A stretch of 64,000 bases of DNA, taken from positions 3,467,489 through 3,531,488 of the forward strand of contig OY811978.1 of NCBI GenBank assembly GCA_963681505.1, written 5' to 3'. Positions 24,929 to 27,900 of this stretch are shown here, piece after piece. Position 1 is the stretch's first letter, and every line of letters begins with the position of its first letter. The position numbers and the translations under genes were made by a program. The notes beneath the pieces were generated by a model, which searched no databases, was not told where the DNA came from, and saw only the letters and a list, made by a program, of their open reading frames with translations. This DNA is from Eunapius fragilis (lineage: Eukaryota; Porifera; Demospongiae; Spongillida; Spongillidae).

Positions 24929-27900
24929 TTATTGACAGTATACTTTCTGAAGGTCCTCATACAGTCTTGATCCAGCCGTAAGAGGTGCTCTAATGACTGA
25001 CGCCTGCGGATGAACATGTTCATCAGCATCGGTCCAGTTCAAAAGCACAGAATCAGGCTGAAACAGTGACTGCTTGATGGATCTAAAGCTGGGACGGTTT
25101 GAACTAGAAGGATGCCTATATAGAGTTGTAGGTGGGGATGGGGAGGAGAAAATCAAAGTATGTAAATGGCATCTAGGGTGATGACCATTATGCTGTTCAC
25201 CCACCAACACTCAATCATGATATTGTAAATAGATCTGGGGCACCCTGGTGGTGGGGGCATGCGGTAGCCGCTCTCTATTGCATTCAAAAACTGCTCGGGG
25301 AAAAAAGGGAACAAGGCGGCTAAATGCAGTCTCATACTTAACTCACATTATAATTGGAATAGTTTGTGTACAACTTCTCTCCCATGGACCAGATTTCATA
25401 CATAACACAGCCGAAGCTCCATACATCACTTGCAGTGGAGTATTTCTTGAAGTGCAGTGCCTGTTTGTTTGTTTTGAATACATACCTTTGCCAATAATGG
25501 TCTCTTCTTACCTCTGGGGCTGTCCATCTCAATGGGATCCTTCCTCCCTTGGAGATATAGTAGGTATCATCCTCCAAGTCACGAGACATTCCAAAATCTG
25601 CAATCTGTTGATATTTTAATGTATACAAGCACTTGTAGCCATACAGATGGGTGTCATACCTTGCATACATCACAGTGTGAAACTAAAATATTCCTTGCAG
25701 CGAGATCTCTGTGGATAAATGCCTTTTCAGCCAGATATTCCATCCCAGAAGCTATCTGCTGGCAGTATTTAAGTAGACTCTGAGGTAGCCCATCATACGA
25801 AGATGCAGATCTGTGATGAATGCCAAAGGAAACGGATTCAGGCAAATTAAAATGACATACTTGGGATCAGGTATTCTTGAGCTAAGGTGGCATTTGAGAT
25901 CTCCCTTTTCCAGTAATTCCAACACCATCATGATCTGCATGTGTGTACGAAGTTGTATGTGCATGGATGAAGATGATATGGTCAACTCAACTGTTTCTCC
26001 TTGCGTAGTTATGCCATGCAATGTCACAACATTAGGGTGGCAGAATTGACCCATAATAGCTACTTCTCTGAGAAATTTTATCTTGTTGTTATCAACGCCA
26101 GCCATTTCAGGGTTAAGAATTTTGATAGCGACAGCTACAGGCCCGTTGGTGGTCTTCCATGTACCCTTGTTTACTATACCAAATTGGCCACGACCAAGGC
26201 AGCTCGACACCCTGCATTGTAGGAAAGCTTGTAGTAACACTCTGCATATGTGGAAATTAATTGCAATGTACTTAATGATGCTTTCATCAAGTAACTTGAT
26301 TTTTATCTTCTTGAATTGTGCATAAAGGGCCCATTCGTCAGTGGCTGGCTGCACAAATGATTCTTCGACACCTGTCTGTCTTCTTTCTGCAACAATGTTC
26401 ATCTGAATGTCCGCCAAAAGGTTTCAGGGATGGAAAGAAACAAGCATACAGTGTGCCCCTTGAATTTTTATTAACTTCACCAACCTCTTCATGAGGTTTG
26501 TAATTCAATCCTGCAGCTGCGTCATTTTGGTTCTGGACATTGATGTAGCCTACACTCTGGATGTGAGCTTATTTATTTTAGCAATGTTGCATGTATGCTG
26601 CAATATCTATATCTAACCTTTGTCAGCTCCAAGCTTTCAGAATGTGCAGGCTCATTTCCATGATTCCTATTGGTTTCCTTCATTGATGTATGCATGTGTA
26701 TTTGAATATATTAATAAGCTTTTGTTAACAGAAAATGAGATTTGAGTATTCTCACTAATGGGGTTTACATGTAACATCTATTATTCCATATCTCTATACT
26801 GCTTTACTATAACTTAAAAGTGATTTGTCATGCAGAAGTTATTATTATTTAATAAACTAAAAGTTGCATGATTGCTGTCATCAAGACCTACCATATTGAC
26901 ACACTGTACACCTCTGCCTTCTGCTGCTGTAGCGTAGATATAGTCAGCTGCCTAATGAGTGAGAATTTGCACTGCCCACTATAACCTGCAATCAGCCATT
27001 GGCAAACTTTTTCTGGTGGCTGAGGCATGATCCCGAGGTTCATTGATAACTCAAGAGCAGAGACATAGTCATTCGATTCTGTGAGCTGTGGGGGGAAATA
27101 ATCTAAATATGGATGAAACATGTACACTTCCAGTACAACAAACCTCAGTGTGCACTGCTCCCCTAATTTCGTTTGGCAGCACGTAGTCAGCTGCCTAAAT
27201 AGACCAAGTAAAATAATCACACTAAACTAAGACTAAATTGAGGCACGAGTGTATCTGCATTAAACACTGAAGAGGCGTTTAACCTCATACATTTTTTTTT
27301 GTTCCATCACTAACCTCTCCCGTGGTTCTCTTCACAGTGCTAACTGAATAGATATAGTCAGTAGCTACCTGTTGTTCCTTTAAGTGATATATTGGAGGTG
27401 GGTTTATATAAGTACATGCATATGTATAGGAGAATGGTTTTATTTATGTGTACATGTTTGTGTGCAAATTGTGTACATACAAGTATTTTCCACACAAGTG
27501 TCAAGAGTGCATGCCCATGTGAATTATTTTTACGAAAATGAATAAAAGTGGAATAGAAAGATACCGCTTACCTCAGACACCCTATTAGGACGAGTTATTT
27601 CAGTGGGATGAGAGTTAACCACCTGCTGAAATAACAAACGTTAAGGAATCTGTAATGAGGAGTATATAAGTATTTACCTCAGTGCAATTTGCATAGACAG
27701 GATTTGCATCAGGTTCCACAATTAAATCCTGAGGTTCAGTATCAGAATGAGCTGCATGAGAGAATTACTTATACACCCATATTACAGATTCAAACAAGCA
27801 ATTTTCAGGTTAATAACACAACTTACGACTAGCTGTAGGTAGGTGCATAGTCCTCTTTGAAATCATTTTGACACAAACAATGACAAGTGCTGCTATTGCC

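Follow-up and report, generated by a model that had tools for sequence, protein, structure and literature searches.

The segment between the membrane helix and the kinase of gene A, a predicted receptor tyrosine kinase (RTK) of the sponge Eunapius fragilis, has probably been enlarged by duplication and divergence of short, symmetric docking exons within a permissive slot. Gene A occupies positions 29242-24929 on the minus strand of the window, by which is meant the whole 64,000-nucleotide stretch of contig OY811978.1 that was analysed. The slot would lie between an exon that ends in phase 0 and the kinase-side exon, which starts in phase 0, and short symmetric exons would have been duplicated and diversified within it. 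Once phosphorylated by the kinase of the same receptor, the linker tyrosines would recruit SH2 or PTB adaptors, with the number and kind of docking sites set mainly by the exons that the gene owns. Docking sites set a receptor's message to the cell, but as they are located in rapidly evolving, disordered regions, their evolutionary gain is difficult to trace. In the present case each corresponds to a single symmetric exon placed in a fixed slot, and gain, loss and duplication can be counted per gene across a large family within one genome.

Gene A and its mini-exons

The gene A model, constructed from our own reading of splice sites and frames, predicts 19 exons and a protein of 745 aa, with AG/GT at each intron and a single open frame throughout. 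The predicted protein consists, in order, of a signal-like start, a Ser/Thr-rich repeat ectodomain, a membrane helix, the NPVY exon, seven mini-exons (a-g), the kinase and a tail. The parts are as follows, with phases given as in/out:

29155..29242, minus strand: exon 1, signal-peptide-like start (hydrophobicity judged by eye), out phase 1
27996..28480, minus strand: exon 2, Ser/Thr-rich ectodomain from a 15-base minisatellite (STSVQ repeats)
27827..27932, minus strand: exon 3, transmembrane helix by eye, 0/1
27678..27751, minus strand: exon 4, the NPVY exon (NPVYANC), 1/0, asymmetric; matches gene B units
27572..27625, minus strand: mini-exon a, 0/0, 54 bases, without tyrosine; tandem acceptor CAGCAG (start 27625 or 27622)
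27315..27368, minus strand: mini-exon b, 0/0, 54 bases (63 via acceptor 27377); weak acceptor; resembles d and e
27144..27194, minus strand: mini-exon c, 0/0, 51 bases; counterpart in paralogue L051
27008..27085, minus strand: mini-exon d, 0/0, 78 bases; weak donor
26892..26951, minus strand: mini-exon e, 0/0, 60 bases
26618..26677, minus strand: mini-exon f, 0/0, 60 bases, without tyrosine; weak acceptor
26485..26556, minus strand: mini-exon g, 0/0, 72 bases; SVGYINV...LNYKPHEE
26272..26402, minus strand: K1, kinase-side exon, 0/2; ALYAQF motif resembling the LYxQL/F of paralogues
25205..26211, minus strand: K2-K7, tyrosine kinase domain exons
24929..25115, minus strand: last coding exon, from the gene model

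The kinase was identified by Pfam as PF07714 (E=1.8e-86), and the VAIK, HRD and DFG motifs are all present in the model; gene A looks like an active receptor tyrosine kinase. Among the best 60 of 2679 matches to solved structures, Eph chains reached up to 241 bits, FAK 214, and EGFR 153 per stretch; the 309 bits of a two-kinase EGFR construct are two stretches of 153 added, and otherwise Eph kinases score best. The label Eph-like, as used here, denotes this comparison with solved structures only, with no tree against named kinases. Gene A was rejected as a true Eph receptor, as a Pfam search at E up to 0.001 returned two kinase families only and no ephrin-binding, fibronectin/FN3 or SAM domain. 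A Pfam search of the exon 2 ectodomain returned no domain. The 15-base minisatellite encoding its STSVQ-type repeats spans 28099-28389 in gene A and 39507-40142 in the neighbouring gene B, where it is longer, and its length may be variable between individuals. SH2 domains are present in the same genome, with 70 exon-level matches.

The sequence-only reading had described a run of six consecutive phase-0/0 exons in this linker, with an NPVY exon preceding them. Its coordinates, 26485-27751 on the minus strand, run exactly from mini-exon g to the NPVY exon, and its exon limits and phases were reproduced, with AG/GT at each cassette boundary; the gene model, however, holds seven such exons of 51-78 bases. 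In the model each of the seven has a length that is a multiple of three and the same phase on either side, as would be expected of an alternatively spliced cassette. The same reading gave five exons a single tyrosine motif each. Five of the seven do carry tyrosine (b, c, d, e and g), but b (DYIYS) and e (DYIYA) hold two tyrosines each and g holds a second one (NYKP). Skipping without a frameshift would be possible for all of a-g; the NPVY exon enters in phase 1 and leaves in phase 0, therefore its skipping would shift the frame, and it was rejected as a skippable member of the cassette.

The introns of the cassette measure 52, 203, 120, 58, 56, 214, 61 and 82 bases in the gene model. All eight are in phase 0, versus five of ten elsewhere in gene A (hypergeometric p about 0.03). 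Scored with matrices of generic values, the weaker splice sites are the acceptors of b (-1.5) and f (-1.6) and the donors of d (-2.4), K1 (-2.4) and K2 (-7.6). The acceptors of a and b are ambiguous, and the scan described below favours 27622 for a and 27377 for b, which would lengthen b to 63 bases; both exons are 0/0 either way.

The region from the NPVY exon to K1 was scanned for non-overlapping open 0/0 AG..GT segments of 45-90 bases, with acceptors and donors scored at three thresholds; the length range and the loosest threshold were fixed after the exons had been seen. The scan returned 5, 6 and 7 candidate exons at the three thresholds, and the seven obtained at the loosest are a-g, with the acceptors of a and b offset by 3 and 9 bases from the model. 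Dinucleotide shuffles gave means of 0.25, 0.89 and 2.0, none of 300 matching the observed count at any threshold, and the observed number of tyrosine-bearing candidates was reached by 0, 0 and 1 of the 300. The opposite strand of the region yielded 0, 0 and 1 candidates and the reversed sequence 0, 1 and 1. As a real-DNA control, same-sized tiles were drawn from both strands of the whole window, the cassette region itself being left out. These gave means of 0.24, 0.70 and 1.8; the observed count was reached by 0/194 tiles, and the tyrosine-bearing count by 1/194 at each threshold. These results support an excess of mini-exons over chance.

Exon duplication, gene B and the paralogue family

Evidence that individual mini-exons are coding is clearest for exon c. 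Among 20 loci, the paralogue L051 (contig C11) is the closest to gene A in K2, the first kinase exon compared (62%), and is 67% identical in K4; L056 reaches 72%, over a shorter part of K4. Read by eye, the L051 linker contains five 0/0 exons: FSDYATPNEIRGTAGLPK, STPISIPASSKKL, SSQYSELEEAIRKAPI, PYNNVQGTL, and a longer minisatellite-coded exon with NYTEV. The exon FSDYATPNEIRGTAGLPK matches exon c of gene A, with DY..PNEIRG kept, and the pair has the top score of 171 exon-peptide pairs (p at the floor of 0.0025 set by 400 shuffles). Within the block, eight residues are identical while the codons differ at seven of the eight, all synonymously, so that exon c appears to be coding and old; such a pattern is strong evidence that it is translated and under selection. 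The longer linker exon of L051 (C11:3000-10500, reverse strand) is itself a minisatellite, with HQPMGSVRSPG-like repeats following NYTEV.

Within gene A, the DNA of exon b resembles that of d (p 0.002) and of e (p 0.01) among 28 pairs, and in the ranking of the 171 peptide pairs b-e and c-e come within the top eight; not all of these p-values survive correction for 28 or 171 pairs. Duplication of exons within gene A (b-d, b-e, c-e) is thereby suggested. The earlier proposal that such exons are open to duplication is borne out directly by the tandem pairs of gene B, which adjoins gene A at 38-41 kb and has ectodomain repeats and the membrane exon in common with it (711 bases at 90%). Its relevant features are:

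39234..39339, minus strand: transmembrane exon, a near copy of that of gene A
38234..39171, minus strand: tandem array of four pairs, each of an NPAY exon and an exon x, with the phases of all eight exons preserved
38079..38173, minus strand: terminal exon carrying YPEM and YEVI, closed by a stop

The NPAY exons are 83, 83, 83 and 80 bases long (phase 1/0) and the x exons 49, 46, 46 and 37 bases (phase 0/1). The length differences among the copies preserve the phases in all eight exons, which argues for an array that was translated during its expansion. No kinase apart from that of gene A was found among the matches listed on the contig, a search by which a weak match could be missed. Gene B is open from the membrane exon to the stop, but when its ectodomain start is read in the frame used by gene A, a TGA is encountered at about 40205. 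Gene B may therefore be a pseudogene, or its start or splicing may differ. Just after gene B lie an open frame at 35692-36978 (minus strand) and an 80-base inverted repeat at 37384-37858, which by eye look like transposon remnants, as does a further open frame at 30041-31015 (plus strand). The window also contains five intronless open frames of 314-355 residues with the look, by eye, of multi-helix membrane receptors:

3476-4438, 11073-12035, 15025-16089 and 19653-20594, plus strand: receptor-like frames, by eye
20966-21913, minus strand: receptor-like frame, by eye

Pfam searches of seven other long ORFs of the window, comprising the receptor-like and transposon-like frames, returned nothing at E up to 0.01.

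To survey the family, 40 candidate regions were picked among the kinase matches listed and 11 loci (L051-L061) were fetched, of which nine had linkers readable by eye (L052 in part); those of L054 and L058 were not definable. A pattern built on the first part of exon e matched, across the genome, only exon e itself, and a protein search of the genome with the linker matched only the gene A linker and gene B. Such searches thus miss distant mini-exons, and the linkers were read by eye. From the first linker exon to the kinase-side exon, gene A has seven 0/0 exons, L051 five and L055 two; L053, L057, L060 and L061 have one each, L059 has none, L056 has none or one depending on the acceptor chosen, and L052 has about one or two. 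The nine readable paralogues therefore carry 0-5 symmetric exons in the slot, two of these counts being uncertain, and all have fewer than gene A. The sequence-only reading had called for runs of phase-0 mini-exons to be sought in other sponge kinase genes, and the symmetric slot does recur in the readable paralogues; a slot unique to gene A was accordingly rejected. LYxQL or LYxQF is conserved in the kinase-side exon of gene A and of all nine paralogues, and in four it is preceded by [FY]YxPA. A YxxP or NPxY motif is found between the membrane helix and the kinase-side exon in seven of the nine (L051, L053, L055, L056, L057, L060 and L061); in L059 one such motif occurs, in the kinase-side exon only, and none was visible by eye in the partly readable linker of L052. 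In L055 (C15:6015300-6022300, reverse strand), tyrosine motifs have been multiplied within an exon, with four SYSHL repeats in a single linker exon.

A kinase tree of 19 rows and 118 columns, in which L052 and L053 also stand for L031 and L040, these being the same genes, and L061 was left out, splits gene A, L051 and L056 from the rest (98/98); 11 of its 15 inner branches are drawn open, and the bootstrap of the tree had not settled. The two longest arrays so far would thus fall in one kinase group, though L056, with 0 or 1, falls there as well. L031 and L032 (C23:4232634 and C23:4252489) lie in opposite orientation about 20 kb apart and are identical in the two kinase exons compared, and would represent either a recent inverted duplication or an assembly duplicate.

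Tyrosine motifs and readings of the linker

The linkers of nine genes were pooled (631 residues), leaving out L052, kinase-side exons, exons fused to the membrane helix, the L051 minisatellite exon and gene B. In the pool, P/L/I/V/M/F occupies position +3 of 24 of 40 tyrosines (permuted mean 9.9, 0/5000), and YxxP occurs 10 times versus 2.6 expected (0/5000 permutations). These permutations treat related paralogues as independent, and as the exons were joined, position +3 may cross a junction. Acidic residues or Asn before the tyrosine were not enriched in the pool (21/40 versus 21.7), and Asn at +2 was weakly so (6 versus 3.1, P 0.08). Some paralogue exons were found via a filter requiring tyrosine, so the pooled tyrosine density of 6.3% is biased upward; in the gene A linker alone the density is 9/168, not significantly above 3% (P = 0.07). 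By our own count, only two of the nine gene A tyrosines have P/L/I/V/M/F at +3, a weaker pattern than in the relatives, and several of the copied motifs may therefore be spacers. Grb2 binds the YxN class and PTB domains the NPxY class, and DYIYS, NDYVS and DYIYA of gene A are not known to fit a strong SH2 class. YxxP is outlined as the binding class of the CRK SH2 domain in PMC5043372. The best sites of gene A by class are NPVYAN, YVLP and YINV. The proposal that the linker tyrosines act as docking sites is partly supported by the pooled +3 and YxxP enrichments, but in gene A itself only these three sites fit the named classes.

That several mini-exons are annotation artefacts, being intronic sequence open by accident, is highly unlikely. 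Each of b, d and f has at least one poor splice site, and loose thresholds yield about two candidates per region by chance, but neither the shuffles nor the real tiles reached the observed number, the conserved block of exon c has changed only synonymously, and b is similar to both d and e. Combinatorial alternative splicing of the seven symmetric exons could tune adaptor binding through up to 128 frame-keeping forms, as might be read from the 0/0 phases of all seven, the weak acceptors of b and f, the weak donor of d, the tandem CAGCAG acceptor of a and the second in-frame acceptor of b. However, short introns favour splicing across introns and usually disfavour skipping, and of the eight introns in the cassette five measure 52-82 bases, six of the seven exons being flanked by such an intron on at least one side. 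The donors of kinase exons K1 and K2 are as weak or weaker, so that weak sites are no sign of regulation here. Phase symmetry is in any case expected, because asymmetric duplicates break the frame, and as duplication alone would produce it, combinatorial splicing is rated as unlikely. We think that the majority of transcripts contain most of the mini-exons; the likeliest candidates for optional exons, should there be any, are b and f, which have weak acceptors and lie next to the longer introns.

It is rather unlikely that the linker serves chiefly as a flexible or autoinhibitory spacer with drifting exons, its function being confined to NPVY, exon c and the kinase-side tyrosines. Eph juxtamembrane tyrosines are autoinhibitory. 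The kinase of gene A is Eph-like, and autophosphorylation of Eph juxtamembrane tyrosines is outlined in PMC6993872; the absence of tyrosine from a and f, the three motifs placed above outside the strong SH2 classes, and the clear conservation of exon c alone in L051 also point to a spacer. The pooled enrichments at +3 and of YxxP, the repeated NPAY pairs of gene B with their phases kept, and the four SYSHL repeats within one L055 exon argue against it. Under the preferred reading, duplication and divergence of docking exons in a permissive slot, docking sites appear to come and go one exon at a time. A broader version, which we regard as improbable, would have the family keep a fixed phase-0 slot where tyrosine mini-exons arise through tandem duplication and disappear again, and would make gene B a docking partner that gene A phosphorylates in trans. 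The features of gene B behind this idea are an ectodomain and membrane helix similar to those of gene A, four NPAY motifs, YPEM, YEVI and no kinase match. If it is true, each paralogue would evolve its own adaptor code while the kinase is left untouched. The family also offers a test between symmetric exons being kept for splicing and only symmetric duplications surviving.

Relation to known systems

No description of an RTK mini-exon cassette was found among the titles and abstract openings listed from the open-licence PMC literature, a scope that does not prove absence. The nearest functional parallel is RTKB2 of Monosiga brevicollis, which, as summarised in PMC3584944, has six disordered RM2 repeats that are phosphorylated by its own kinase and then bound by an SH2 domain. 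Like gene A, it is an RTK with repeated tyrosine-bearing units, whose binding in gene A would be a prediction. The RM2 repeats, however, are about 80 residues long and lie C-terminal to the kinase, whereas the modules of gene A are 17-26 residues, each encoded by one symmetric exon, and lie in the linker between membrane and kinase. According to the outline in PMC5043372, the CRK SH2 domain can bind repeated YxxP-type tyrosines, as found in the cytosolic part of choanoflagellate transmembrane proteins and in the substrate domain of BCAR1/p130Cas. Gene B is like these choanoflagellate proteins in being a predicted membrane protein with repeated tyrosine motifs and no kinase match, but it repeats NPAY rather than YxxP; p130Cas differs in being an adaptor with SH3 and FAT-like domains. 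Eph receptors, as summarised in PMC6993872 and PMC6485061, resemble gene A in kinase similarity and juxtamembrane tyrosines; gene A differs in its Ser/Thr repeat ectodomain and in the domains missing from its Pfam matches. The sponge Amphimedon queenslandica has 150 RTK genes according to PMC3584944, and is likened to the present genome by its very large RTK family, that is, by family size and not by sequence.
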